Origin: a virus
DNA: 60,342 nt
Direction: 5' to 3' (one strand)
Virus record (IMG/VR): IMGVR_UViG_3300008262_000063
Span: 1-60,342 of that record
Below, piece by piece: positions 4,812 through 59,166 of the stretch (its first letter is position 1; the number at the start of each line of letters is the position of its first letter). The notes under the pieces are model-generated. The model was given only the letters and a program-made list of their open reading frames with translations, made no database searches and was not told the DNA's origin. The position numbers were made by a program, and so were the translations under genes.

Positions 4812-7800
4812 ATGTCAGATAGTTCATTATCATTTATATCTACAGCTAGTTTCAGAAACAGTTTAATGTCTCGTAATTTAGCTCCTTATACATTACAAGG
4901 AGTGTATTCACCCCCTGTGTCTAATACTAATTACCCGACAGTCATAGGAGATTTAAATGTTATTGATTCACCAAATAATTTAATTGGTGATAGCCCGTTT
5001 CCTGATAGATTATATCCATTAAACGAATATGGACCTGAAGGTGGGTATTCTAATACTGTTATAAATAACAAATATCCATTAAGACCAAACAAAGGTGAAT
5101 ATGACCCAAATGACACTGAACTTGATTTGGTTAACGAATTTTATATTGACGCAGCTTATATAGAAAACAGATACGGACCTATTGGTGGTTACATGAGTAT
5201 GGTGGTAATTGATTCTTTGGAAAATAAGAATAAGTTATATACCCCATATTGGAATCCACCGACATTTATTCCGTCTTCTTATTCACCTTATCAGATTTTG
5301 TTATCAAATGATCCAACAGGTTCTTCAGGTTTATTATCTCAGGATTCTTTCATCGTTAAGTTGGGCGCTCAAACATTAAAGAATTTATTACAAGATAGAG
5401 TTGATGTTGAAAATGCTCAAATAAATGGAAGTGCTGGTAGTTTGGACACATTTAGTAATCCTTTGAATTCAACTTTGCTTGTATCAGGTAGACTAGATAC
5501 TACTAATAAAAATTACAAAATTACCATACCTGAACAAGGATTAGGAACATCTCAGTCATTATCTTCAAGGTTATCAGACAATTATTTTCCTGCGTCACCA
5601 ATACCCGGAGATTATTTTATCGAGAGTCCATTTAACGGTGGTTCAAGTGCTCAGATTACAAGTGGTGTAAATGCTTTAAATCAATTAACTGGTGGTGCAT
5701 TGGGTGGGATTCTGAATGTTTTAAGAAATCCATCACAAATATTTTTAGCTAATACGGGTAATGGACAACGTTCCATTCTTTTTGCCAATATAGATTATAA
5801 CAGATACCAACCTCCATACGATAGAAACTTGGGAGCCGCAGTTGCCGTAGGACAATTTGCACTTAACGCTCTTGATGTAACGACAGGTGGTTTTTATGTT
5901 GGTAGTAGAAATGCTGACCCATCAACAATTACCTCACCTCCGAATCAAATTCCTGTTGATGCTTTTGGAAGACAGATTCAGACACCTGTTTATGGACCTT
6001 CTGAATTGGGAATTTTATTTGAAGGTAATGAAAATAAAATAAATTTTGGTTTAGCAGGTAAATCATTTACGGATGGTGGAGGTATTGATGGACAATTTGT
6101 TTGGACATCACCAAAATATAAAGGGAACGCTGGATATAAAGCAACACCTGGTGGGGGTGTTGGATCACTTGATACTGAATTCAATCAAATTAGTTCACAA
6201 TATACTAGTAATGAATCAACAAGTATAACATTCAAACCTTCATCAATATTAGATGCTACACAAAGATTAATTGAATCTGCGGATAATGTTGCTGGTATAA
6301 CAAAATTAAAACATGTTGGAAACGCTATAAATCAAGTGAGTAAGGTTTTCAATGATGGGTATAAAGAAATGACTAAAGGTTCAAGGGTTTTATCATATCA
6401 AGATAATACAAATGGGGGAGAAGCGGGTATTGAATATTGTAGGGTATTTACAAAAGATACTCCATATTACACTTATAATGATTTACAAAAAACTGATGGA
6501 ATAACAACATCAGGAAGAAGATTTGTGAATTCAGTTTTTGATAATACATACAACCTAAACATAGCACCACTAAGAAATCCTGGTTCTACAAATATACTAC
6601 CTAATGAAAAAGGACAATTAGTTGCTAAGAAATATATGTTCTCTTTGGAAAATTTGGCTTGGAGAACTTCAAGTAGGCCTGGACTTACTTATGATGATTT
6701 ACCTGTATGTGAGAGAGGACCTAATGGAGGTAGAGTAATGTGGTTTCCACCTTATGATTTAACATTTAGTGATACTAGTACACCAAACTTTCAACAAACC
6801 AATTTCTTAGGTAGACCTGAACCAATATATACATATAATAATACAACTAGATCAGGTTCTATTAGTTGGAAAATAATTGTGGATCATCCATCAGTTATGA
6901 ATACAATAATTGAGAAACAATTAAAAGGACAACAAAAAGAAAGGATTGATTCTATAATTGATTCATTCTTTGCTGGATGTGTTAAATATGATGTATACGA
7001 ACTTGCTAAAAAGTTTAATATGTTAAAACCATCCGATATCTATGAATATCAAGAAATTTTGAATAACCCTAGATTAACTAGAGAGGAATTAGCGGGTGTT
7101 AATTTTGAAATACAAAAAACTGTAACAATACCAGCACCTATAGGTGGAAGTACAAATGGTCAAGGTGGGGATTCAAATATATCAAATGTTGATAAAAAAA
7201 CATATCAAGACGATCCTGAACAGAAAAATTTTGAAGATAGATATAAAGAATTGGCGTTTTATTTCCATGATGATATACCAGGTCCTCAAACAGGAACTGT
7301 ATCAAATCAACCTTATTCACAAACTTTTGATTCTTATAAATCTTTGATGACAACATATGAAAATACATCAAATTCATTATTTGGGGACACATCACCTTTC
7401 TGTAAAAAAACAGGAACAGTTAAAGTAACCGAAAATGGAAGAACTCAAGTTGATACTGGTAAGTCACATCAACAGTATTGTAATGAAGCTAAAAATGTTA
7501 AACAATTCTTTGATACCATAGTTGAATCAAACTATAATGTAATCTCAAAAAATGAGAAAAATTTTATTGTTGATGCTTATAATATTATTAAGAAGGGAGG
7601 TACTGTAACTATCGAAATGATAGGTTCTGCGTCTGCGTTGGGTAATCAAGATTATAATAAAAATCTTTCTTTAAGAAGGATTGATTCAGTTAAGAAATTT
7701 TTTAAAGAAACAACAATAGGTGACGCTAATTTGGGTAATGAAATTGATAAAAAATTTTTTATAAAATCAGCTCAAGGAGATGGTGAGGATATATCAATAC

Positions 7801-38695: not shown

Positions 38696-39871
38696 ATGAG
38701 AACATTAAACAGACATATTAGAATTTCACCTGAAGTTATAAGTAGTGACTTATTCTTGGTTAGATTTAATGCTGGTGGGCAAGTAATTCCATCAGAAATC
38801 GATCCATGCTGTGAAATCACAACAACAACCACAACAAGTAATTTAACAGGGTTGACTTATGTTTATTCATCAATGACACAACTATTGTCAGGTGGGACAA
38901 ATGGAACATCATTATTAACTGGTTTAACAATCCCAATTTTATTAACTGAAACGGCAACTGATATTGGTTACTATTCTGTTTTTGATGGAATGATATTACA
39001 ACAAGATGTAATGAATAATTTCATATTTACAGGGGATTCTGTATTTCCATATTATACAGTTATATTGTATAATACCTCAGAGAATGAGTTGAAAAAATAC
39101 TTAAGTTTCTCAAGTTATGAAATTTCTTGGGGAGATGGACAAACAGAACCAATCTCACCATATACTCCTTTACCAATATCACACACATATGGAAGTGACG
39201 GAGAATACATAATATCAGTAAAAGGAATGAGTCCTTGGGGATTTAATACAATTAAAAAAACTGTGTACATCCCAATTACAGGAGCAACTACCGATAATCC
39301 GAATGGTACTGCTTATTTCACACCATTGGGTGGTAGTTGGTCAGGAACGCCAATTATGTATGATTATATATTCAGCGGAGATGCAAGTTGTGATGCGACA
39401 ATTGATGGATTTGATGATTTCTTATCAGGAAGTCCTTTGGTTATTAGTGGATACACAAAATCATCATTGAGTGACTTACAAGTTTATGGGCCTAAAAATA
39501 CTTTAGTAGGTGGTAAATATAGAGTTGGACCCGTTACAGGTTCAAGTGGGGCTGTTGGAGTATTCTATGGAACTCCATCAAACTCTGATTATACCGCCTA
39601 TACAATAAATAATATTGATTATTATGATTACCCTGATGATATAACAATTTTCATTGTCAGTGGGGTATCTTCGGTTGATTATGTGTGTTCGGCAATAACT
39701 AAAAATGAAGTGTTATTGAATGTAATTTTTGAGCCTGAAGTACAATCAAATGTGTTTATCGAAAGGGGTAAAAATTCTGGACTTGAGAGATTGATTAGAT
39801 TAGGGGAGGTTGATAATATAGGTGACTTAGAAAAGTATGGGTATGGATTTTTCAATATAATAAATACGTAA
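38696..39871 (+). CDS. Tail structural protein with PKD-like domain and Thr6 linker
   Basis: 391 residues. The N-terminal anchor (RTLNRHIRISPEVISSDLFL) ends in a CC pair and a six-threonine tract (residues about 42-47), the same kind of linker that recurs in the minus-strand fibre proteins. Residues about 141-178 form a PKD-like domain: YEISWGDGQTEP, SHTYGSDGEYIISVKG. PKD domains are protein- or glycan-interaction modules common in Bacteroidota surface proteins. The C-terminal half is beta-rich. It is probably a decoration or fibre-attachment protein of the baseplate. It lies one base after the previous stop. Confidence 0.6.
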   Translation: MRTLNRHIRISPEVISSDLFLVRFNAGGQVIPSEIDPCCEITTTTTTSNLTGLTYVYSSMTQLLSGGTNGTSLLTGLTIPILLTETATDIGYYSVFDGMILQQDVMNNFIFTGDSVFPYYTVILYNTSENELKKYLSFSSYEISWGDGQTEPISPYTPLPISHTYGSDGEYIISVKGMSPWGFNTIKKTVYIPITGATTDNPNGTAYFTPLGGSWSGTPIMYDYIFSGDASCDATIDGFDDFLSGSPLVISGYTKSSLSDLQVYGPKNTLVGGKYRVGPVTGSSGAVGVFYGTPSNSDYTAYTINNIDYYDYPDDITIFIVSGVSSVDYVCSAITKNEVLLNVIFEPEVQSNVFIERGKNSGLERLIRLGEVDNIGDLEKYGYGFFNIINT

Positions 39872-43800: not shown

Positions 43801-44155
43801 AAGTAATGTATTGAATTCGTATTTAACAACGAATGGACAATCTTTAAGTAATTGTGATTTAAATAGTATGACAACAACATGGTATGTTGATTTACGATTA
43901 AACAATACTACTGTTGTTTCATACCCATTCTTTAATGGTATTGCTTACAATATACCAACATTTAGTACACCGAGTGTTTCTGATTGGGATAATGCGGTAG
44001 TCGCCGCGTTAGAGTTACTTAAAAATTATGGATATAATTATTACTTAACAGAGAGTGATACGGTAGTGGTTTATAGTGAATCATGTGCAATTTCTGAGAC
44101 AATAGTAAACTTTAAAATAAACGTAGGAATAAATTTTCAAATATATTGTAGTTAA
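40832..44155 (+). CDS. Baseplate wedge / tail protein I-like structural protein
   Basis: 1107 residues. Residues about 300-470 are helical with [35 protein letters not shown] and [19 protein letters not shown]. This last motif (KGT followed by a helix and GAP/GVP) is the hallmark of tail-protein-I-like wedge proteins that attach tail fibres to the baseplate. The N-terminal 300 residues are beta-rich. The C-terminal 250 residues are Cys-rich ([33 protein letters not shown]) and may be the docking site for the following adhesin. It starts on TAATG with the previous gene and its stop overlaps the ATG of the adhesin in the same way, so adhesin and attachment protein are co-translated. Confidence 0.65.
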
Positions 44156-47100
44156 TGGCTTGTGATTTAAATGTTATAATAAATGGTATAACTGGAGACT
44201 GTTCAAACAGTAGTTTAGGTGCATTTGACATTAGTATTGTTGGAGACGCCCCTGATTATTCAATCCAATGGATTGAACCCCCATTAGGTACAATTGCGTT
44301 AGGACCTGGGGTTACAGGTTATAGTATAAATTCATTATCCGCTGGAACATATACATTAAATGTTTTAGATAGTTGTCCGTTAGAAAATACGGTTTATTTA
44401 TTTAATATTAATATATCATCAGGAACTTGTGTTTCGATTGAATCAAGTGGAACTACTTGTGGATTAAATAATGGATTAATTACGGCATCTACCACAAATC
44501 TTTATGCTCAAGCAAGCTATATTTTATACGAGACTACAAATGGTTATGTTACATCAGGAACAACACCTATCACTAATTTTGTTTTTGGATCATTATCGGC
44601 AGGAACATATTATGTAATTGCTGATGACGGGGGAGGATGCACAGGTAAAAGCCAAAGTTGTATCATCAAACCTTCAAATCCTTTTACTTTTGGTTTATAT
44701 CAAGTTAATAATTCACCTTGTTTCATAAATACAGGTGCATTATATATCACAGGTTTAACAGGTAATCCGCCTTATACTTATTCATGGTCTAATGGTGGAA
44801 TAGGACAATCAATAACAGGATTAAGTAATGGTAATTATTCTGTTGTAGTTACGGATGGGTTAGGATGTAACGCTGTAGCAACTGCAACAATAGAATCCGT
44901 ACCATCAATAGGAACTTTAATTCTGATAGATAGTGAACCGACATGTTATAGCTCAGATGGAGTTGCAACAGTGTATATTACAGGAGGAACAGGTCCGTAT
45001 CATATTGAAGGTTCTAATGGTGATGTAATTATCACCTTTGACACTTCTTATACATTTACAGGATTATCATCAGGATTCTTTTCCGTTACTGTTACAGATG
45101 CTGGTTTATGTCAATCAACTATAACAACAACATTACAAACACCAAGTGGACTATCACTAGTGAGCGTTGATGTAACAAACTCTACTTGTAACAATAATGG
45201 AGGAGGTATACTAGTTTCCATATTCGGTGGAACTTCACCATATCTATACACCCTAACAGATTCATTATCCAATTCAACAACATTCATACAGCCTGTTCAA
45301 AATGGTGGAGCAAATTTCTTAGGGTTAAGTTCAGGGACTTACTTATTAACCATTGATGATAACTTGGGTATATGCCCTTATTCACAATATGTGACAGTTA
45401 ATAATACCGTATTATATACATTGAGTGTTAGTACCACAGGTACAACATGTGGGAATGATAATGGTTCGGTAACTTTATCTATCACAACTGGTGGTACAGG
45501 TCCTTACAATTATCAAATCAATGGACAAACAGTAATCTCAAATACATTATCATATACATTTACAAATTTACCATCAGGAAGTTATACTGCTTCAGTTACT
45601 GATATTAACCTATGTCAACAAATATCACCATTCACAATTAATAGTTCTCAAGCGGTTAATTTCATTTTGAATGGAACAAGTCCTGTTGGTAATAATGGGA
45701 TAATAGAAACATTCATAACAAGTGGTGAACCTCCATTTACATTAAATTGGAGTCCAAATGTCGGAGCTCAATCTGGATTAACTGTGACAAACTTATCAGC
45801 AGGAACATACTCACTAACTGTTGTTGATATTTCAGGGTGTTCACAAACTAGATCGATTGATTTATTAGGTTATAATTTATATTCATCTTATGAAGTTTAT
45901 AACATTTGTTCTGATGATTTAACAAATAGTGAACAGATTATTAAGAAAGGTTTAAAACAAATGTTACTTGAGGGATTCTTTGATTTAACATCTGGTGATA
46001 CAAATTGTATTTTAAATTCATCAATATTCGAGGCTGTCGTATCGGTTGACGGTATTGTCCAAACTGGAATATTTTATAGTGGAACAGGAGTAAATGATTT
46101 CCCAACTGATTCTGTTTTCTTTGATACTGTTGAAAACTTATTATTAAATTATCCGAATATTGAAACGGTTATTATTGATCCTGTGACTGGGAATTTAAAA
46201 ATAAGTACACTATGTAATCCACCAATAACAATCATGGATGCTACGGTAATCATTGATGTTAAAGTTTATTATAATATAAGTTGTGAAGTATGTGCTCCTC
46301 CTGTTAATACGGAAACGATTATTCGTATTAATACAACATTGATTTCAAGTGGATCAACTCCAACGGATAAGTTCCAATTGGCGACAACGTTGGCGGGGAC
46401 TTATAATTTTGATGTTGATTGGGGTGACGGTGTGGTTGAAACAATCACAACTTGGAATGATCCTAAGACTGAACATACGTATGCAACTGGTGGGGTAAAA
46501 GAAATAAGAATAAGTGGACAATTCAGTGGATGGACATTTAATAACGCTGGGGATAGAAATAAACTTATTGAAATTAAACAATGGGGTATATTAGAATTGG
46601 GTGATACTCCAGGTCATTTCTATGGTTGTAATAATTTGGTATTAACTGGTGTTACAGACTTTATTAATTTGTCAACGACATCAACGTTGGAGAACACCTT
46701 CAGAGATTGTACTTCTTTGACAACAATCAATAATGTTGAGTATTGGGACACATCAAATATTACAAGTTTTGTAAACACATTCAATGGAACTGTCTTTAAT
46801 CAGGATATTACATCTTGGGAAGTTTCAGGTGTAACAGATATGTCATTTATGTTCTTTAATAACACATCATTCAATCAAGATATTGGTTCATGGAATGTAT
46901 CAAATGTTGTTGATATGAGTGGTATGTTTTACAATGCAACATCATTCAACCAAGATATTGGTGGATGGGATGTATCAAATGTTACTAATATGAACGTCAT
47001 GTTTTTTAACGCAACATCATTCAATCAAGATATTGGTTTATGGGATGTATCTAGTGTTACTAATATGGCTGGTATGTTCGAAGATGCAACATCATTCAAT

Positions 47101-47874
47101 CAAGATATTGGTTCATGGAATGTATTAAATGTTACTAATATGTCAGTTATGTTCCAATTTGCAACATCATTCAATCAAGATATTGGTTTATGGGATGTAT
47201 CTAGTGTTACTAATATGGCTGGTATGTTCGAAGATGCAACATCATTCAATCAAGATATTGGTTTATGGGATGTATCAAATGTTACTAATATGGCTGGTAT
47301 GTTTTCCAATGCAACATCATTCAATCAAGATATTGGTTCATGGAATGTATTAAATGTTACTAATATGGATAGTATGTTTTCCAATGCAACATCATTCAAT
47401 CAAGATATTGGTTTATGGGATGTATCGAATGTTACTAATATGTCATTTATGTTCTTTAATAACGCATCATTCAATCAAGATATTGGTTTATGGGATGTGT
47501 CAAATGTTACTGATATGAGTGGAATGTTCCTAAACACAACATCATTCAATCAAGATATTGGTTCATGGAACGTATCAAATGTTACTGATATGACTGGAAT
47601 GTTCCAAGATGCAACATCATTCAATCAAGATATTGGTTTATGGGATGTATCAAATGTTACTAGTATGGTTAGTATGCTTAGGGACTGTGGAATGAATCAA
47701 ACAAATTATGAAAATCTACTCATAGGTTGGGACTCATTACCATCGTTACAAATTGCAGTTAATTTAGGTGCGTTAGGAAGACAATATCAAATAGGAAGTG
47801 CTTCAGATATCGCCAGATCTAATATTATCGCTTCTTACTCTTGGACAATAACAGGAGATATAGCGGTACCATAA
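44155..47874 (+). CDS. Tail fibre adhesin with SprB-like and DUF285 repeats
   Basis: 1239 residues. Residues about 10-575 carry seven SprB-like repeats of about 75-85 residues, each with a Cys, a GGTxPYxYxWSNG-like turn, LxxGxYxVxVTD and often a closing Cys (for example [20 protein letters not shown]). SprB repeats are typical of Bacteroidota gliding adhesins. A unique domain follows (residues about 580-720), then a PKD-like stretch ([25 protein letters not shown]). Twelve 25-residue DUF285/BspA-type repeats ([20 protein letters not shown] pattern, residues about 880-1178) come next, then a short cap. The modular beta repeats make this the likely receptor-binding fibre. A bidirectional terminator follows the gene. 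Confidence 0.8.
46792..47688 (+). repeat. Twelve tandem 75-bp DUF285 repeats
   Basis: In-frame 75-base units each encode FNQDI-x-x-W-(D/N)-V-x-x-V-x-x-M-x-x-MF. Twelve FNQDI copies are countable. Units differ mainly in the variable positions after W and M, so the array could expand or contract by recombination without losing frame. Confidence 0.92.
47011..47263 (+). repeat. 103-bp exact direct repeat inside the DUF285 array
   Basis: Bases 47011-47113 and 47161-47263 are identical, offset by 150 bases (two units). This indicates a recent two-unit duplication. A shorter identical block also occurs at 47101-47142 and 47326-47367. Confidence 0.85.
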
Positions 47875-48511: not shown

Positions 48512-51500
48512 TTATATATCCAATTTAATCAAAATCTGCTGAATACCCTGTCTTAAAACAGGAGATTGCATTTTCGATATAATCATAAGATTTTTGTCAG
48601 AATCGTAAAGACCAACCTCAGTTATGTAACGATTGTTACTTGATAACCAAGTTGGGTTTGATGGAGTTTGGAATTCCGCTTGACTTAAATTAATCTTATA
48701 TACCATTTCATAAATTGTTGCTTGAATATCAGTTTCAACATTACCATAAAAATAATATTCATCACCAAAGTTAAGTTGATGTCCTGTAAATCCTACAGTT
48801 GTTAAATCAATATAGTCACTTAAATCATAAATGTCAGCATCATCATATAAATCCTGAGTGATTACAAATGTATTTGCGGTTAATGATTGTTGAGTGATAA
48901 ATCCGTTAATCGTTGAACCACTCAATTGATCTGTGAAATCAATTATCTTCCATTCATCTGATTGAGGTCTTCCCGTACCATCAACCTTTTGACAAATTAT
49001 TTCAAATTTATTTGCAAAAAATCCTGGTATTAAATCACAAACTGTTGGACATAATGTTGTCGTAGTTGTAACAGGAAATAAAGTTGTAGTGGTTGTCGTT
49101 ATATTACAAGGATTAATTGTTGTAGTTGTTGTACATACTGATTCACACAAATCAATAGTAAAATCATCTCCTGATATTAAATTAATTACATCTGTTGTCA
49201 CAATACCACTTATTGTAAGTACACAACCAGTGTAAGGTGATAAAGATAAATCGGTAGTTACTTCATTAATCACACCATAACAATCTACATATGTTAGTTC
49301 TGTACTTCCAGCACAAGGACCACAATTTTCAGTTAATGAAACACACTGACAACCAAGGGTAAATACATCCAAGAATGTTGTTGACGAAACTGATGTATAT
49401 GATGGATTGGTTACAGTCCAGTTACCTAATGGAGAGTCCTCGATGGTAAGTCCTGGTAATATCGCGATTTCGGTTGAACCTGAAGAAAATATCCAATTAG
49501 ATCCATTATAAGAAATTAAAGAATTACCTGAACCAATAAAGTCAATATAAACTAATTCTCCTGAAATCAATGATGGATAAAATAATAAATTATTACATAC
49601 TTCATCAAGACCTATCATCTCACAATATTCTAAAACGAATGGTTTGTATTGATCACAAGTTGAAAATCCTGTTATAGTATTTTCACCAATATCATATGAA
49701 AAATCACCAATAGGATTGTCTAACATACTATCAAATGTTAATAGTAGTGGATCTGTTAAATCACTTGGAAGAATAACCCAATTTGTACCATTAAAATAAA
49801 AATTATATATAGTCTCCAAAAATGTAACATAAATTGGTTGTCCATTTAAGAATTTAGTAGTGGGGTATAAATATAAACCAATATAACTTCCTGGTGTTTC
49901 AAATCCATTGTCTATCCATAAAATGATACCATCATACCAACAAGGACAAGGATTAACTGTTGTTGTGGTTGTGGTAACATTGGATAACTGATTTAAACAA
50001 GGAAACTCAGAACCAAAACGAATTGCAACATTCTGTGATGGTATTGGATTACAAGTGACATTTGGTCCTTGAATTCGTGAATAATAATTACAATGTAATG
50101 AATTGGTATAATCAAAAGTATTTGATAATCTGTAAGTTACATAAAGATACTCAGAAGAACCTGTCAATATACCTTCAATAGAATTGTTATCAACCCCACA
50201 AACATTTGGAGTAATCAATGTTACTTTTGGTGCAGGTAATGTCCAGTTTCTGTTTGATTTATATGACATTGATGCTATAATTTCCTCATCATCAAAAATG
50301 ATTATTTTCGAATCTGGGAACACTTTACCAACTCTACTAGGATAACCGTCCAAGTTTGGATTTGTATCCCACAAATGGTAATATCTGATACCAGGCGTAT
50401 TCATGTCAGAGTTTTTGGTTGACTCTAAATGATGTACAGTAAATAAATTCAAATCTTCAAAACCTGGAGGATCAACATAGAAAGATTGTCCATTACAACA
50501 ATTAGGGTTTTTATGCCACATTATCCATGGTAAATCTATTCTGAAATTTCTTGCTTGTCCTGTTGTATCCTCAACACCATCATCAAATGGTTCTAAAGCA
50601 AATTTCTCTCCATAAAACAAATCAACTGTCTGATTGGTATAATGTACAATAGAGATAGCTTTTTGTTGTTCAGGTGTAACTGTTACTTTTTCATCAAATG
50701 AATTATAGTAATAAACAGAACTTGTATCTGTTTGTCCACTACTTGAAGCATAACCGAAATATTCTTTTGAGCCCAAATAGTTTATAGAACCGAATTTAGT
50801 ATAATCTTTATAAGCATTTGGATCGATACCTGCTGGTGTCTCAGACCAAGGAATATTCATATTCCATATCTTCACATCAAATTCATCTGTATAACAAACT
50901 GATTCGTAATTGATAACATTATTAGACCAATGATTACTTGGAGTTATACTATCATAAATTTCGGTAATTACTGGTGGGTAAACTAACACTCTGGCATAAC
51001 ATTCTGAACTGAATGTTGAAAAGTCAGGAGTGGTTCTATCCAAAGTGATTAAGTCATTACAAACATCAATTACTCTATATGTTAAAATTGTATAACAAGA
51101 TGAAACATTAACCAAACAATCAACTGGTGGTGGAGGACAACAAGGATTTATAAATGAACAAGTTGTCGTTGTTGTAGTGGTAGTTGGTATCGGAGTAACA
51201 CAAGGATTTGTTGTTGTTGTGGTTGTTGTTGGGCAAGGATTTGGACTACATTCCCCCAAATTAACAAGATTGTATAAACCAGCACCCTCAACTGTTGGAA
51301 CTGTTGAACTCAATGTACAGAAAGTAAAAGCAGTTGAAGATAATAGGATTGATGAAAAAGATCCACTACAACCTGTATAATTTAATAGTATTGAAGTTTT
51401 ACCAACGGATATTTGATATTCAGTACAAGAAACACACGGAGATGTTGTAGTTGTGGTTGTAGTACCCGTAATACAAATACAATCTGAAATTCCATTCCCA

Positions 51501-52036
51501 TCAAAATATATTGTAACAATATCACCTTTTTGTATGGATCTAACTGAATTATCGTTACAAGAATTGTTAATAAGATTAATTGTATTTGTCCCAATTAATG
51601 TACTCATATCAACAATATAATTAGAATTAATTACGTGAGTGTTATTTGTTTTAGCACTCCAATTAATAACATCACCTACAGTTGTTCCCGTGAAAAAACC
51701 TCTAGGAGATGCTCTATTATAGACTGGTTCAACAATAGAAGCCATAAATGGAATTCCATATGTGTTGCCGGCTGTACCATCAACATAATATGGATATTTT
51801 ACGTTTTCTTTATTTGATTGTGGAACTCCAGCCGAGTTCTGAGCATTGAAACTTGGTTCTAATACGAAACTGTTAAATTGATTATAACTTGATTGAGGTA
51901 ATGCGTTATATGAAACCTCACTATCACCAATTTGGAAATATGATATGTTAAAATTACCTTGAGAAATCTTTAACCTACCTGTATCGGTAATTCTCGTATT
52001 TATTAAACCTGATGTATTTTTTAAAATGTATCCCAT
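48512..52036 (-). CDS. Large fibre-like structural protein with multiple Thr-rich linkers
   Basis: 1174 residues. The N-terminus (MGYILKNTSGLINTRITDTG) resembles virion-anchoring starts of large-phage fibre proteins. The body alternates beta domains with at least six tracts of five to eight threonines, usually bracketed by Cys and Pro (ITG-T6-SPC, CP-T7-NPC, IP-T8-CS, NV-T6-VNPCPC, VC-T5-INPC, IT-T6-LFPV-T5-LCP). Cysteines are abundant. Such tracts resemble mucin-type linkers and are good O-glycosylation acceptors. The Thr codons vary (ACA, ACT, ACC, ACG), so the amino acid and not the DNA repeat is conserved. The C-terminus (residues about 1030-1174) is a separate beta domain. It is probably a tail-fibre or decoration protein. 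Confidence 0.6.
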   Translation of the reverse strand: MGYILKNTSGLINTRITDTGRLKISQGNFNISYFQIGDSEVSYNALPQSSYNQFNSFVLEPSFNAQNSAGVPQSNKENVKYPYYVDGTAGNTYGIPFMASIVEPVYNRASPRGFFTGTTVGDVINWSAKTNNTHVINSNYIVDMSTLIGTNTINLINNSCNDNSVRSIQKGDIVTIYFDGNGISDCICITGTTTTTTTSPCVSCTEYQISVGKTSILLNYTGCSGSFSSILLSSTAFTFCTLSSTVPTVEGAGLYNLVNLGECSPNPCPTTTTTTTNPCVTPIPTTTTTTTTCSFINPCCPPPPVDCLVNVSSCYTILTYRVIDVCNDLITLDRTTPDFSTFSSECYARVLVYPPVITEIYDSITPSNHWSNNVINYESVCYTDEFDVKIWNMNIPWSETPAGIDPNAYKDYTKFGSINYLGSKEYFGYASSSGQTDTSSVYYYNSFDEKVTVTPEQQKAISIVHYTNQTVDLFYGEKFALEPFDDGVEDTTGQARNFRIDLPWIMWHKNPNCCNGQSFYVDPPGFEDLNLFTVHHLESTKNSDMNTPGIRYYHLWDTNPNLDGYPSRVGKVFPDSKIIIFDDEEIIASMSYKSNRNWTLPAPKVTLITPNVCGVDNNSIEGILTGSSEYLYVTYRLSNTFDYTNSLHCNYYSRIQGPNVTCNPIPSQNVAIRFGSEFPCLNQLSNVTTTTTTVNPCPCWYDGIILWIDNGFETPGSYIGLYLYPTTKFLNGQPIYVTFLETIYNFYFNGTNWVILPSDLTDPLLLTFDSMLDNPIGDFSYDIGENTITGFSTCDQYKPFVLEYCEMIGLDEVCNNLLFYPSLISGELVYIDFIGSGNSLISYNGSNWIFSSGSTEIAILPGLTIEDSPLGNWTVTNPSYTSVSSTTFLDVFTLGCQCVSLTENCGPCAGSTELTYVDCYGVINEVTTDLSLSPYTGCVLTISGIVTTDVINLISGDDFTIDLCESVCTTTTTINPCNITTTTTTLFPVTTTTTLCPTVCDLIPGFFANKFEIICQKVDGTGRPQSDEWKIIDFTDQLSGSTINGFITQQSLTANTFVITQDLYDDADIYDLSDYIDLTTVGFTGHQLNFGDEYYFYGNVETDIQATIYEMVYKINLSQAEFQTPSNPTWLSSNNRYITEVGLYDSDKNLMIISKMQSPVLRQGIQQILIKLDI

Positions 52037-52060: not shown

Positions 52061-52786
52061 TTATGTAGTTGAGACATTGCAACAACTACACCCAAAAATG
52101 TTAAGATTGCTTAAAGAATAAAATTCTTCATTGGTTGTAAAATAACAGTTTATATCAGTATTCTTAACCGAAGAAGTTGTTGTTGTAAGTAAAAAATCTG
52201 TAGAACCACTCAATGTTAAACCATTCCAAGTATCCGTAGATGTATTCACAAACAAGGTTTCTGATTGACATCCAGGGATTAAATTAAACGTTGAACCTGT
52301 GGTTAACCCTGTCGATGAGGGTACAACCGTAATTGAATCAATCACAAGTTGAGAATTGGTTGTTGTGGTTGACGCTGAATACACTGGTGAAACTTTATTA
52401 ACATTCGTATGATTTAAATCGAATGTAATGTAAGTACCATTTGGTAAGGATGGGGTTACAACAATATTTGTTTCGTATTTTTTAGTTAGAGTTACACTGT
52501 TATTTTGTAATACTGAAGTTTTCGTATTTAAATAAACACTGTAAGTTATTGGATCGTTTGGTTTATTTAGAATTACTGTATTTGTACTAGTTGCCGATAG
52601 AGAATCTTTAACAATTACAGTATAAATCCCTGTACACAAATTTATGAATAAAGGTGTGTTTCTAAAAGAAACTCCAGCATCGATAGAATATGAATATGGT
52701 GGAGTTCCGTTCTGAGCTGTGACAGATAAAGAACCATCACATCCACATATTCCTTGATTTAAATTAACTGATGAAAATAGTGCCAT
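52061..52786 (-). CDS. Small SprB-repeat fibre protein
   Basis: 241 residues. The N-terminal part is one SprB-like repeat: CGCDGSLSVTAQNGTPPYSYSI, then LCTGIYTVIVKDS. A beta region with short Thr runs (AS-T4-NSQ, LL-T4-SS) follows, and the end is Cys-rich (FGCSCCNVSTT). There is no signal peptide. It sits between two other fibre-like proteins, eight bases after the preceding gene. It is probably a minor fibre or tip component, sharing its repeat with the plus-strand adhesin. Confidence 0.6.
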   Translation of the reverse strand: MALFSSVNLNQGICGCDGSLSVTAQNGTPPYSYSIDAGVSFRNTPLFINLCTGIYTVIVKDSLSATSTNTVILNKPNDPITYSVYLNTKTSVLQNNSVTLTKKYETNIVVTPSLPNGTYITFDLNHTNVNKVSPVYSASTTTTNSQLVIDSITVVPSSTGLTTGSTFNLIPGCQSETLFVNTSTDTWNGLTLSGSTDFLLTTTTSSVKNTDINCYFTTNEEFYSLSNLNIFGCSCCNVSTT

Positions 52787-52794
52787 TTTTTATT

Positions 52795-53499
52795 TTAAAA
52801 ACATGAGCCTTCAGAGACTGTAATAGTTGATTTTGCTTTAACTCTGTAAAGAATTGTCCAGCCTGTGAAGTTTTGATTGATACCTGGAATAGGTGGATAT
52901 GATGGATTTGAATTAAATGTTGTTATACTATTTGTAGTAAAAATACTTGTTGACGATCCTGAAACTGACCACCCCCCATTATTTGGTATTAATGGATCAT
53001 AATAAACAATTTCTTGTCCCGTTGGGTCGGAAATCCACTTTGGATAACCATTTAACGTCCCATCAGGTACAAAATTAAATGAATATTGTTCTGTTATTGT
53101 TCCATCAATTGACGTTACTGTAATTGTCATACAGAACGAATATACTTCATATGGTGGTAAAGTTGTTGTTGAAGTGGTAGTTGTTGTAGTTGCGGGAGGT
53201 CCTCCGACAGTACAACTGGTAGTCACCATAAAATCACCATAATAATCAGTAATTGATGCTGTGTATGTACCAACAGATAAATTACCTATAGTTTGTCCAC
53301 CCTGAATTGTTTGTCCATTTGGATATGTCCATTTTATAGTATACGGAATTGTACCACCAGTAATACCAAGAGTAATAAAGCCATTGGATAAACTCTCTTT
53401 TCCTGTAACATTTGTTACATTACATTTTACTATCATTGGTGCCACAGTAAAAATACTACAACTATTAACAGGTAAGTATCCAGGATTTTGGTATGCCAT
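52795..53499 (-). CDS. SprB-repeat fibre protein with Thr-rich linker
   Basis: 234 residues. One SprB-like repeat occupies residues about 25-100 (SNGFITLGITGGTIPYTIKW, LSVGTYTASITDYYG), followed by a Thr/Ser linker (GPPA-T6-S-T3-LPP) and a C-terminal beta domain (EVYSFCMTITVTSIDG and onward, ending SEGSCF). The layout of head repeat, Thr linker and second domain repeats the design of the neighbouring proteins. The gene follows the glycosyltransferase gene and has its own TATTTATA box. Confidence 0.6.
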   Translation of the reverse strand: MAYQNPGYLPVNSCSIFTVAPMIVKCNVTNVTGKESLSNGFITLGITGGTIPYTIKWTYPNGQTIQGGQTIGNLSVGTYTASITDYYGDFMVTTSCTVGGPPATTTTTTSTTTLPPYEVYSFCMTITVTSIDGTITEQYSFNFVPDGTLNGYPKWISDPTGQEIVYYDPLIPNNGGWSVSGSSTSIFTTNSITTFNSNPSYPPIPGINQNFTGWTILYRVKAKSTITVSEGSCF

Positions 53500-53523: not shown

Positions 53524-54504
53524 TTATTGTTCATTTTTTATGACATTTTTCATTTGTTCAATATATTTTATGGTTGAACTGTTTTTTTCGATATAATCGA
53601 AAAAGTTTGGATTCTCTTTTAGTTTTAATAATGGATTAACATTAATAAATTCGCCTTTATAAAATTTAGAGGGCTTCAAATCTTCGGTAACACCCGCCAT
53701 GTGTAAAATTGGATGTTTTTCATATGTTGCAATTGTATCTGTCGCCCAAGAAAAACTTAAATCATTAACAATCCTTGTTTCATGTCCTGTCCGCCACAAA
53801 TTCCAAAGAACCGCCCACATATCGGCCGTCCATATTTGAAGATCTCCTGATGGAATTCTATGTCTCATATTAAACTCATAAAGTTTACGATATAGAACCT
53901 CACAATCAGTGAAAACCTTTTCCCAAAAAGTATAATCTGTATTTTTTATAAGGTATTGAGCCCCACCAGAATTCTTATTATTTTCTTTTACCACTTCAAC
54001 GGGGATATCAATAATATCGGACATTAATTGAATCAATTGTCCTTTAGATAAGTTTGGATGGTGGGTTTCGTATCTTTGACAACATCCCATGATATAATCA
54101 TAACTGATATAACTAAGAGTGTCTGATAAATATACAACATCATCTTGTAATAATTTATCAAAATCGGGTAGTTGTCTGAAAATTATATCAGAGTCATGAT
54201 AGAAATAATATTTACCTAATTCAGGATATTCTTTTAACCATCTTGAAAGAGCTAATGGTCTTAAACTTGGGATATATTTTTTATCTTTTCTATCATCAAG
54301 ATAATGATGTATATTAATTCCCAAGTCTTTCATTTTCAAAGATTCCTCAGTTGGGGAGGTATTACCATTAACCATCACAAACAAAACGTGAATATTTTCA
54401 GGTTTGATACCTTTTTCTATGAAATTATTAGTATATACTTTGGTTTGCCAATGAAAATAAGGAATGTCTGGATGAGCAGATACAAAAACTAAATTATTCT
54501 CCAT
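53524..54504 (-). CDS. Glycosyltransferase resembling hydroxyproline/serine O-glycosyltransferases
   Basis: 326 residues, soluble, no signal peptide. Landmarks in order: VSAHPDIPYFHWQTKVYTNN (residues 8-27), YIPSLRPLALSRWLKEYPEL, the DxD site FYHDSDIIFRQLPDF (DSD 104-106), NSGGAQYLIKNTDYTFWEKV (178-197), WTADMWAVLWNLW (225-237) and HPILHMAGV (264-272). This order (PYxxWQ near the start, RPxAxxxWL, acidic metal site followed by a PLP/QLP turn, a GaQ/iIS block, an EMxxY/ADMWA block and a final His) resembles plant and algal hydroxyproline O-arabinosyl- and peptidyl-serine galactosyltransferases. The resemblance is recalled, not aligned. It lies within an operon of Thr- and Thr-Pro-rich fibre proteins, which are possible acceptors. 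It could otherwise modify host glycans. Confidence 0.65.
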   Translation of the reverse strand: MENNLVFVSAHPDIPYFHWQTKVYTNNFIEKGIKPENIHVLFVMVNGNTSPTEESLKMKDLGINIHHYLDDRKDKKYIPSLRPLALSRWLKEYPELGKYYFYHDSDIIFRQLPDFDKLLQDDVVYLSDTLSYISYDYIMGCCQRYETHHPNLSKGQLIQLMSDIIDIPVEVVKENNKNSGGAQYLIKNTDYTFWEKVFTDCEVLYRKLYEFNMRHRIPSGDLQIWTADMWAVLWNLWRTGHETRIVNDLSFSWATDTIATYEKHPILHMAGVTEDLKPSKFYKGEFINVNPLLKLKENPNFFDYIEKNSSTIKYIEQMKNVIKNEQ

Positions 54505-54539: not shown

Positions 54540-55754
54540 TTATAAATAATATAGAATATCCGCAGTACCAACAAAAGTTGCATTCGCTCCCAATGGGGTT
54601 ATACAAATCCACATTTCATCTCTAGTGCCATCAACATTTTGACCCGGTCTAATTTGATTATCATCAATTTTTGTTGTTGTTAAAGCAGATGTCCCCGCTT
54701 CACCAATTAATGATGTCATTATATGACCTGGTGAAGTTATTGTGGGTGTACCATCACCTAATGAGTACTGAAAAGGTGAGTTTGGTATATCAACCCAAGT
54801 TGGTGTTGACGATAAAGTCGGATTAAATTCCATTGACATTAAGTAATTGTCATTTGATGTGTTTAATATACTTATTGAGTCAAATTGTGATGTAACACCA
54901 ATATACCCCTCCTTTAACCTATAACCAATGTATGGATATTTCGTACCTGATAACAACATAGTGGTTGTCGCAGTATAAGGAACTGACACTGTTGAATACA
55001 GTCCGTTTAAAGCACCTTCTGTTGATGTTTGAGAACAAATCATATCAAAATAACCTGAACCAACCCCAACTTGTCTTATCTCGTATCTTATCGGTTGATT
55101 TGGCGATGACATATATACTGTTGGGATATTATTTGCTGCCGTATAATCAATAAAATATATTGTTTGACCAGATAATACCATACCAAATCTCATTCGACCA
55201 ACACCCAACCATTGATAATCAACTGTCATTAAATTAGATTGAGACCAATCAAAATTATTTGGGTTAAATTCAGTAGTACCCCAAGTTGTTGAATCCGCAC
55301 TAAAACTACAAGAACCACTCAAGTAAATATTAAATGTATGCGCACTTGTAACACCATTACTCTCCAAAAAGAAACCATCGAAAACTGAATTATAGGGAGA
55401 ACCAGTTGTTGATTGAAAACATCCAACTCTTTTAATTACATTAGGTTCTATTTGAAAATTACTAAAACTACCTTCAAATAATTGACTTTTACCTGGTTGA
55501 TAAATTGGATGTGTTTTAGTCTTACGAATAACCAAGTCATTGTTAGCTGAGGTTGACATTCTCACTCTTGCATATTGTTGGTCAAATATTGATGTAGCTG
55601 TACCAGCCGTAACCTCACTAACTTGAAGTGGGTTTTTATCAAATGTATGTTTGATATCCAAAAGATTTTGTACTGCGGCAGTCCTTAAACGACCAAAAGC
55701 GTCCAAGTTAGGACCATCTGAATATTTTACTGAGTTATTAAAAATGTATGCCAT
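54540..55754 (-). CDS. Virion structural protein with FGRLR motif
   Basis: 404 residues. The N-terminal SVKYSDGPNLDAFGRLRTAA followed by NLLDIKHTFDKNPL carries the DAFGRLR-type motif found at the start of many large-phage virion proteins. The rest is beta-rich with Gly/Ser/Thr (RVGCFQSTTGSPYNSVFDGF, GVGRMRFGMVLSGQTIYFID), ending FVGTADILYYL. It contains no poly-Thr linker. It lies two bases after the YadA-like fibre gene and is probably a fibre shaft or decoration protein. Confidence 0.6.
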   Translation of the reverse strand: MAYIFNNSVKYSDGPNLDAFGRLRTAAVQNLLDIKHTFDKNPLQVSEVTAGTATSIFDQQYARVRMSTSANNDLVIRKTKTHPIYQPGKSQLFEGSFSNFQIEPNVIKRVGCFQSTTGSPYNSVFDGFFLESNGVTSAHTFNIYLSGSCSFSADSTTWGTTEFNPNNFDWSQSNLMTVDYQWLGVGRMRFGMVLSGQTIYFIDYTAANNIPTVYMSSPNQPIRYEIRQVGVGSGYFDMICSQTSTEGALNGLYSTVSVPYTATTTMLLSGTKYPYIGYRLKEGYIGVTSQFDSISILNTSNDNYLMSMEFNPTLSSTPTWVDIPNSPFQYSLGDGTPTITSPGHIMTSLIGEAGTSALTTTKIDDNQIRPGQNVDGTRDEMWICITPLGANATFVGTADILYYL

Positions 55755-57096: not shown

Positions 57097-59166
57097 TTAT
57101 AATGGATTACAACACATAAATATTACGTAGTTGCGGAACCCCCAATAATTGAGATACATTCCCAAACTTTGGAACGAATTCCCCGCCAAGAACGATGAAG
57201 AAGAACCCAAAGGTAATGAAGGATAACTTGCAGAATATGAAATATATCGCCAACATTCATTTTCATAAGGGAAATCAGTTAAACTGAACACTTGATTAGG
57301 TATTGATGTCGGACCTAACAATGTTTGAATAACATATTCATTTGTTCCACATCTTTGGAATAAATAATACCCGACAGGAGCTGATGACGTTGGTGTAGGT
57401 GTTAATGTTGGAGTAACCGAAGGTGTTGGTGTCGGAGTTGGTGTTAAAGTAACACTTGGAACACAAACTGAACAATCGGCATCCAAATCTAACGGACCGT
57501 CAACCAAATCAATGTAATTCATTCCATTAATTATTAAATCAATACCAACATATGTAATACATCTTGAAATACCATCAACATTCGCTTTGAATACTGATAA
57601 CTGAGATAATGTCCCACCTGATGGTAAAGGTAATGGATTTGAAGCATAATACAAATTACCATTTTCACAATCAATAAATTTCTTACTACTTGGACAATCA
57701 ATTAAACCAAGAACCGTATTGAATGTTACATTACCTGAAACACTACAAGGTCTTGTAACTTCGGGTGAATTGGATGGTGTAATTGTCGGAGTTGGGGTTG
57801 GAGTTGGGGTATAACCACTTATAGTTACATCAATTGCTCTACCGCCACAAGGATCACTTGGTGATGGTGTTGGTGTCATTGTTGGAGTTGTGGAGATTGT
57901 TGGGGTGATACTTGGTGTGGGTGTAACCTCACAATCAAATATTGCATTAAAATCTAACACAGAACAATTAACAGTTGGGGTTGGAGTAGGAGTGGGACAA
58001 GCACCACTGAATACATAAGTGTCACATAAATCAGGACACAATGAACTACAAGGATATTGTCCTTCCAATAAACAAGTTCCATCTAATATTGTTGATAAAC
58101 ACCAAGTTCCACCAGTTGTATAATAGATAACATAACCATTTGTTTCACCACTCCAATAAGGCTCAGAGTTATGAATTCCACCATATTTGAAATAATCATC
58201 ATAACCCAAACCAGTGTCATTAACGCAATAATTAACAATGGGTTGCCTATCAATTAGAATACAATATGGAGTTCCACTACAAGTGTATAAACTATAACCA
58301 CTTGGACAAGTATAACCTGTATTGGTTGTATCACCACTAGATGATAAAGGTATTTCTTGACCAATAAAATCTAAAGTACTGAATAAAGTATTACCACTTA
58401 ATTGAGAATAACTAGTGTACCCACTTAGGGTTGAAACATCTCCACTATAAATCTCGGCACAAAAAGCTGCAAAATCCCCAGTATTTAAACCTTCTAGTTC
58501 AATAATATTTAACCCTGAGTTTAGTGTTATTGGGAATACGTGGTGATTAATGAAAATAAAACTATAACCTGTCATTGATTGTGTTACAGTAGTAAAATTA
58601 CTACTTCTACAATCTACAAGTGTTTGATTATTAACTTTTAATCTAATGTCATTATCAGCAGATAAACCAAAATAATAAGTTCCACCACTAGCAATATCCA
58701 AACAATATGAAAATCCTATCCATTCATTTAGTGGTGGTGCTGGAGTACCTGTTGACGGCCAAATACCCGCATCATTTAGTCTTCCTGTTATTGTTGAACC
58801 TAAACCCCATAAAGAGTTTTGGATTGAAGTTGGTCCATAAGTTCCATCATTATTAACTCCACTACCGACTCCACCAGCTTGCATGTTTAGGATTCTACCA
58901 CTATTATCTAATAAGAATTCTGTACTAAATAAAGGTGTTCCATTTTCAGTTGTTGTACTTCCTGTTGTTCCTGAGTTTGAAATAGGAAATGATAAATTAG
59001 TAATATCTTCGTAAAAGATTACACCTAATTTATTATAAACGGAAACATTACTTGATGCGAAACCAGTGTAGAAATAAGTTCCACCACTTGTTGCTGCGGT
59101 TGTGGTAAATATACAATCATCTGAATCTATGGTTGGGGTATAACCCGATGGACAAGGACAACTCAT
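57097..59166 (-). CDS. Fibre-like protein with PA14-like domain and Thr-Pro linkers
   Basis: 689 residues. Residues about 25-250 resemble a PA14-like sugar-binding sandwich (GTYYFGLSADNDIRLKVNNQ, NEWIGFSYCLDIASG). Cys-rich beta blocks follow, separated by Thr-Pro repeats: CPTPTPTPTVNC, then TPTPSITPTISTTPTMTPTP with SPSDPC, then TPTPTPTITPSNSP, and near residue 585 VTLTPTPTPTPSVTPTLTPT. These extended linkers are like mucin or plant hydroxyproline-rich glycoprotein segments and are candidate acceptors for the nearby glycosyltransferase. It is probably a receptor-binding or decoration fibre. No enzymatic motif is seen. Confidence 0.6.
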   Translation of the reverse strand: MSCPCPSGYTPTIDSDDCIFTTTAATSGGTYFYTGFASSNVSVYNKLGVIFYEDITNLSFPISNSGTTGSTTTENGTPLFSTEFLLDNSGRILNMQAGGVGSGVNNDGTYGPTSIQNSLWGLGSTITGRLNDAGIWPSTGTPAPPLNEWIGFSYCLDIASGGTYYFGLSADNDIRLKVNNQTLVDCRSSNFTTVTQSMTGYSFIFINHHVFPITLNSGLNIIELEGLNTGDFAAFCAEIYSGDVSTLSGYTSYSQLSGNTLFSTLDFIGQEIPLSSSGDTTNTGYTCPSGYSLYTCSGTPYCILIDRQPIVNYCVNDTGLGYDDYFKYGGIHNSEPYWSGETNGYVIYYTTGGTWCLSTILDGTCLLEGQYPCSSLCPDLCDTYVFSGACPTPTPTPTVNCSVLDFNAIFDCEVTPTPSITPTISTTPTMTPTPSPSDPCGGRAIDVTISGYTPTPTPTPTITPSNSPEVTRPCSVSGNVTFNTVLGLIDCPSSKKFIDCENGNLYYASNPLPLPSGGTLSQLSVFKANVDGISRCITYVGIDLIINGMNYIDLVDGPLDLDADCSVCVPSVTLTPTPTPTPSVTPTLTPTPTSSAPVGYYLFQRCGTNEYVIQTLLGPTSIPNQVFSLTDFPYENECWRYISYSASYPSLPLGSSSSFLAGNSFQSLGMYLNYWGFRNYVIFMCCNPL

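Follow-up and report, generated by a model that had tools for sequence, protein, structure and literature searches.

A phage-encoded glycosyltransferase family linked to threonine tracts of virion proteins: a putative virion O-glycosylation system

The window analyzed in this study is a whole stretch of viral DNA of 60,342 nucleotides (IMG/VR record IMGVR_UViG_3300008262_000063), which is probably a fragment of a T4-like phage genome because it encodes baseplate-wedge, UvsX-like, DnaB, ribonucleotide reductase and primase families. SprB-type repeats, together with a relative in Chryseobacterium phage MA9V-3 (the nearest named relative from the Bacteroidota, 38.6%), suggest that the host probably belongs to the Bacteroidota. 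A 1239-amino-acid protein encoded on the plus strand (44155–47874) carries SprB repeats and many DUF285 repeats and is likely to be fibre-like or adhesin-like, and a 530-amino-acid open reading frame, also on the plus strand (381–1973), matches phage homing-endonuclease and HNH families. The gene of interest is an intact open reading frame of 326 amino acids with an ATG start at 53524–54504. It lies on the minus strand, which an earlier sequence-only reading had left unstated, within a run of ten minus-strand genes separated by gaps of 0–35 bases; the plus-strand frame across the same interval contains 21 stops. The features considered here are as follows.

38819–38836, plus strand: Thr6 tract in a 391-aa protein (38696–39871), outside the gene run of the glycosyltransferase
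48512–52036, minus strand: large protein of 1174 aa with seven Thr5–8 tracts; candidate acceptor
49055–49975, minus strand: additional Thr5–6 tracts in the 1174-aa protein
51161–51463, minus strand: three clustered tracts of the 1174-aa protein (Thr7, Thr7 and Thr8)
52061–52786, minus strand: 241-aa protein with two Thr4 runs and an SprB-like repeat below the Pfam cut-off; candidate acceptor
52795–53499, minus strand: 234-aa protein, next gene downstream of the glycosyltransferase, with an N-terminal beta domain, a TTTTTTSTTT linker and a second beta region; candidate acceptor
53173–53190, minus strand: Thr6 tract of the 234-aa protein
53524–54504, minus strand: glycosyltransferase of the phrog_4417 family, 326 aa, predicted GT-A fold; DxD at residues 104–106, C-terminal HMAG...K (H268, K283)
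54540–55754, minus strand: virion structural protein (phrog_1645) directly upstream of the glycosyltransferase, without a Thr tract
57097–59166, minus strand: 689-aa protein with (TP)3–4 tracts and a PA14-like region below the Pfam cut-off; candidate acceptor
57421–57993, minus strand: (T/S-P) tracts in the 689-aa protein

The 326-residue protein contains every motif that had been named for it, in the order given: PYFHWQ (residue 15), RPLALSRWL (82), DSD (104), QLP (111), NSGGAQ (178), WTADMW (225) and HM (268). Residues P83, D104, D106, G181, Q183, Q223, W225, M229, W230 and H268 are invariant across 19 homologues. The DxD is also invariant, at equivalent residues, in a second alignment of highly diverged members, and the DxD, a C-terminal HxAG and one Lys are invariant or nearly so across the family. 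The protein matches the phrog_4417 profile over its full length (E = 5.3e-67, residues 7–321 of 326), a family annotated as being of unknown function under the alias 'prophage pi2 protein 34', a hypothetical protein of Gram-positive phages. A tblastn search placed the family in 74 phage records (31–39% identity among the matches listed), mostly from phages of Lactobacillus, Enterococcus, Staphylococcus and Lactococcus but also of Arcanobacterium and Chryseobacterium; the host phyla are Bacillota, Actinomycetota and Bacteroidota. Two pattern scans of IMG/VR found at least 401 and at least 513 contigs with the gene, in overlapping sets, and a pattern-based scan of genome contigs, a search that reaches few members, found two Enterococcus loci. 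A tree of 54 members comprises a clade of the window type, a clade from Gram-positive phages and a mixed remainder. The reading frame is split in two in phiFL2A (L026:6001–6910) and phiFL1C and is in a single piece in phiFL1A and phiFL2B.

Sequence comparison with known families gave no match for the window protein in Pfam or NCBIfam, no match to any Pfam glycosyltransferase model at E ≤ 10 for any of the 19 family members, and nothing significant in the PDB with either a single sequence or a profile; PDB sequence matches to GNPTAB (E = 0.65) and NirC (0.23) were taken as chance. An AlphaFold2 model built from 19 sequences has a GT-A fold at high confidence (pLDDT 95.7, pTM 0.92), and Foldseek returned 272 matches in the PDB at E ≤ 0.001, of which the 50 listed are all glycosyltransferases. 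As judged from this model, the protein looks like a glycosyltransferase of the GT-A superfamily, which agrees with the enzymatic identity proposed earlier. Two uncharacterized phage protein models are alike: one viral model with nearly the same fold (TM-score 0.89) and LP65 Orf49 (0.70). Among the matches listed, the nearest solved folds are UGGT (GT24) and glycogenin and XXYLT1 (both GT8), with query-normalized TM-scores of 0.38–0.48, about 10% identity and an r.m.s.d. of about 7–13. GT24 and GT8 enzymes (LARGE1 among the latter) share the GT-A fold and the DxD with the phage protein, and several of them act on proteins or protein-bound glycans; however, the similarity is at the level of the superfamily only, and membership of GT8 or GT24 was rejected on both the Pfam result and the TM-scores. 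The GT8 motif HxxGxxK presumably has a likeness in the C-terminal His and Lys of the phage protein. The description of the enzyme as eukaryote-like holds only in that most of its nearest solved folds are eukaryotic; the family itself is one of phages. The more specific assignment to the hydroxyproline O-arabinosyltransferases and peptidyl-serine galactosyltransferases had to be abandoned, since none of the 19 members matched PF23452 at E values up to 10, a negative that rests on hmmscan of these members because PF23452 (HPAT) matched no control genome either. The Ser/Thr/Hyp-rich acceptors of the plant HPAT/SGT enzymes are nevertheless analogous in type to the Thr tracts of the phage.

The Thr-rich neighbours are real, and their tracts lie far above the expectation from shuffled sequences where this was computed: the 234-aa protein has a T6 run against 0.0045 expected, and in the 1174-aa protein seven runs reach at least T5 against 0.026 expected. 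The 689-aa protein contains (TP)3–4 repeats. Thr codons in the window tracts are mixed (ACA 33, ACT 12, ACC 8 and ACG 3), and identical codons are adjacent at a frequency of 0.32 against 0.42 expected by chance; as this is not above chance, the window tracts are not attributable to microsatellite slippage. The tracts lie downstream of the glycosyltransferase gene and farther off, the gene directly upstream being tract-less, and the predicted model of the 234-aa linker protein is of low confidence (pLDDT 49). For the window, we infer the acceptors from neighbouring genes and not from a matched pair of relatives.

The linkage between the enzyme and Thr tracts was examined across phages after the glycosyltransferases had been clustered by identity and all loci found through Thr runs had been excluded. 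A gene with a tract (Thr5 or (T/S-P)4) lies at most two genes from the glycosyltransferase in 16 of 18 clusters at 60% identity, in 44 of 48 at 80% and in 81 of 87 at 95%, against a background of 13 tract genes in 2963 (0.44%) in control phage contigs. When all frames on the same strand were considered, Thr5 occurred within 3 kb in 17 of the 18 clusters. Random placement of the gene within each locus gave an expectation of 3.7 adjacent clusters against 14 observed, a number reached in none of 1,000,000 simulations. In many phages the gene immediately follows one for a capsid, tail-tube or fibre protein, and these neighbour proteins are unrelated between phages. All of the 80 loci of Lactobacillus/Enterococcus type have at least one C-terminal tail of Thr4 or longer, and 50 have two or more. 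The proposed check of co-occurrence in related phages was thus positive, and the linkage to Thr-tract virion proteins recurs in many unrelated phages. Thr codons are mixed in these loci as well: for most of the 18 listed, adjacent codons are identical as often as expected or less often. Selection therefore acts on the protein, retaining the amino acid. The capsid and tail-tube tails of glycosyltransferase-carrying phages of lactic acid bacteria (L028, L111 and L488–L567) often share the same ending, ..TTTTTSHA, THA, SHG or QA, possibly a docking or stop signal.

The T4 alpha- and beta-glucosyltransferases, which have the GT-B fold, offer a different precedent, in which the phage enzyme would glycosylate hypermodified bases of its DNA. 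The divergent member L016 (L016:6598–8921) is an exception that suits this alternative, since the gene immediately before it is cytosine-methylase-like and no tract lies within 3 kb of it; the GT-A fold of the model and the linkage to Thr-tract virion genes in 16 of the 18 clusters make it very unlikely.

Reverse linkage was also found. Among contigs chosen by a Thr10 codon run together with an open reading frame containing Thr8 or longer, nine of 50 carried the phrog_4417 glycosyltransferase, against none of 50 Asn10 and none of 50 Ala10 contigs. The other 41, in contigs that are themselves fragments, lacked it; poly-Thr can exist without this family, and other glycosyltransferases may act there.

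The strongest evidence comes from the presence and absence of the gene and the tail in related phages, for which absence of the gene was checked over whole records in the matched relatives; elsewhere the contigs are fragments and absence is weak evidence. In Coetzeevirus-type loci, which were fetched by their capsid protein and not by the glycosyltransferase, the capsid has a Thr tail in 18 of 19 loci with the gene and in none of 20 without it (Fisher p = 3e-10, an optimistic value because the loci of one cluster or genus share ancestry and Fisher tests overstate their independence). The capsid ends in, for example, SATTTTSTAAPSTTTTTSHA where the gene is present and AIFTASPKA where it is lacking. 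In phages of Sextaecvirus type, the tail-tube protein of the gene-carrying SA2, RQ1, DH5 and TPWB06 ends in a Thr tail and that of PMBT8 in a Thr16 run, whereas in 6ec and SEP9, which lack the gene, it has an acidic end without a Thr tail. In Sandinevirus CHPC836 the gene lies directly behind the capsid gene, and both the capsid and the tail-tube protein are Thr-tailed; in BK5-T, bIL286, CHPC148 and CHPC1175 the whole record lacks the gene, and neither protein has four or more consecutive Thr in frame. The Sandinevirus-type capsids agree less well: in five loci with short Thr4–5 capsid tails the gene, sought in the flanks only, was lacking. A further exception is one gene-carrying locus that ends in GTTTSK. 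Two loci with tail-less capsids, L625 and L641, were rejected as contradictions since both hold a 52-aa remnant of the glycosyltransferase from which the catalytic middle is missing. The C-terminus of the L605 capsid looks as if it was read out of frame.

Several frame-shifted sequences accompany these genes. An out-of-frame run of five Thr codons follows directly after the tail-tube stop in BK5-T, bIL286 and CHPC148 (L116 and L117, ~6400–6440; L118, ~6330–6350) and is likely to be the relic of a lost tail. A (PTTTTTTT)n open reading frame, in the +1 frame relative to the tail-tube gene, overlaps the end of that gene in SA2, RQ1 and TPWB06 (L574:3551–3814, L576:3815–4126 and L114:6720–6926), and one of similar type, shifted to the −1/+2 frame, lies behind the capsid stop in vipetofem (L115, ~6660–6790). 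These frames are candidates for mucin-like extensions reached by programmed frameshifting.

Three further explanations bear on this comparison. The tracts could be products of microsatellite slippage and their linkage the shared ancestry of a gene block, as the variation from Thr6 to Thr16 between close relatives in Sextaecvirus might suggest; however, the mixed synonymous codons, the unrelated neighbour proteins in different phages and the loss of the tail together with a broken glycosyltransferase reduce this to a negligible probability. Phage-encoded transferases that modify surface glycans (seroconversion genes) are common, and the enzyme might modify a host glycan such as LPS, capsule or teichoic acid and block superinfection, with an incidental position in the structural region. 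This is improbable given that its presence tracks the Thr tail of capsid and tail-tube proteins, that its gene so often directly follows virion genes, and that its peak 19-residue hydropathy is 0.84 and it therefore has no transmembrane helix. Finally, virion proteins might be glycosylated outside the tracts, which would be disordered spacers gained otherwise. The acceptor sites of a glycosyltransferase cannot be read from sequence, and many contigs have Thr tracts without a phrog_4417 enzyme; on the other hand, when relatives carrying the gene are set beside relatives lacking it, the Thr tail is a conspicuous difference between their capsid and tail-tube proteins, and unrelated candidate acceptors have only the tract in common, so that this, too, seems unlikely.

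Glycosylation at the Thr tracts is thus the preferred reading. Considering the family, the predicted fold, the invariant DxD, the hydropathy, the linkage and the joint presence or absence with the tracts, the enzyme would glycosylate proteins of its own virion at Thr tracts with a probability of about 0.83, and glycosylation of virion proteins in general by the phrog_4417 family is more probable still. As in the class of virion glycosyltransferases, the gene is encoded and co-inherited with virion proteins, here candidate acceptors. The enzyme would be a soluble, cytoplasmic, metal-dependent GT-A protein that transfers sugar, before or during virion assembly, to Thr hydroxyls in the poly-Thr, and probably also Thr-Pro, tracts of virion proteins encoded nearby. 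The donor would be a nucleotide sugar of the host: sugar-nucleotide synthesis genes were not identified among the window open reading frames that were profiled, a subset of the whole, so the donor is presumably host-derived and the description of the system as self-contained was too strong. The product would be a particle with clustered mucin-like O-glycans, presumably exposed at its surface, which might shield it against proteases or antibodies or stiffen linkers. In the window phage the tracts would be linkers inside tail or fibre-like proteins, and in many phages of Bacillota the same family would serve poly-Thr tails at the C-termini of the major capsid and tail-tube proteins. A broader reading, which we favour with some reserve, is that a poly-Thr tract and a phrog_4417 glycosyltransferase form a widespread two-part module for mucin-like O-glycan coats in tailed phages whose hosts span at least three bacterial phyla. 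This module would be gained or lost as a unit and would use any available virion protein, be it capsid, tail tube, small decoration-like protein or fibre, with some tracts lengthened by a frameshifted mucin-like extension.

Such a system would work like eukaryotic mucin-type O-glycosylation in placing clustered O-glycans on Thr/Pro-rich low-complexity tracts; however, the phage enzyme has no match to the ppGalNAc-transferase family, and no secretory pathway is involved. Virion glycosylation as such is already known from the mycobacteriophages Che8, Corndog and Myrna (Freeman et al., 2023, cited in PMC12363180 and PMC13313380), and PMC12363180 describes phage-encoded glycosyltransferases that glycosylate the capsid and tail-tube proteins of the phage itself and protect the particles from antibodies, an action on own virion proteins that is proposed likewise for phrog_4417. 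In contrast to the phrog_4417 genes beside virion genes, Che8 gp108–110 lie in a glycosyltransferase cluster towards the far end of the Che8 genome, and they show no sequence relation to phrog_4417 (hhalign probability 0.04–1.65%, from single sequences with limited sensitivity). No connection with poly-Thr tails emerged from the open-licence papers citing the mycobacteriophage work. Open-licence papers, a scope that does not prove novelty, yielded nothing relevant on poly-Thr with phage glycosyltransferases and neither a function nor a poly-Thr link for phrog_4417. The enzyme family, its poly-Thr signature, its spread over hosts of three phyla and its unit-like gain and loss appear to be undescribed in that literature.

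If correct, the reading would assign a function to proteins annotated as no more than hypothetical in many phages of lactococci, enterococci, Lactobacillus and staphylococci, and the Thr tract would become a simple, sequence-readable signature of which virions are O-glycosylated and where. Virion glycosylation is reported to alter how antibodies recognize phages (Freeman et al., 2023, as cited in PMC12363180), so that knowing which phages carry it matters for phage therapy and for the biology of dairy phages. Because nature provides pairs of relatives that differ in having the gene, the question is open to direct testing.

In contigs that have poly-Thr genes and lack the phrog_4417 enzyme, Glycos_transf_2 was found in three of 83 neighbours and in none among the control families shown, which is suggestive of other glycosyltransferase families beside poly-Thr. 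Besides these three proteins, the neighbours in such contigs (loci among L121–L240) include methyltransferases and 2OG-Fe oxygenases, and together they may represent other glycan-modifying sets.
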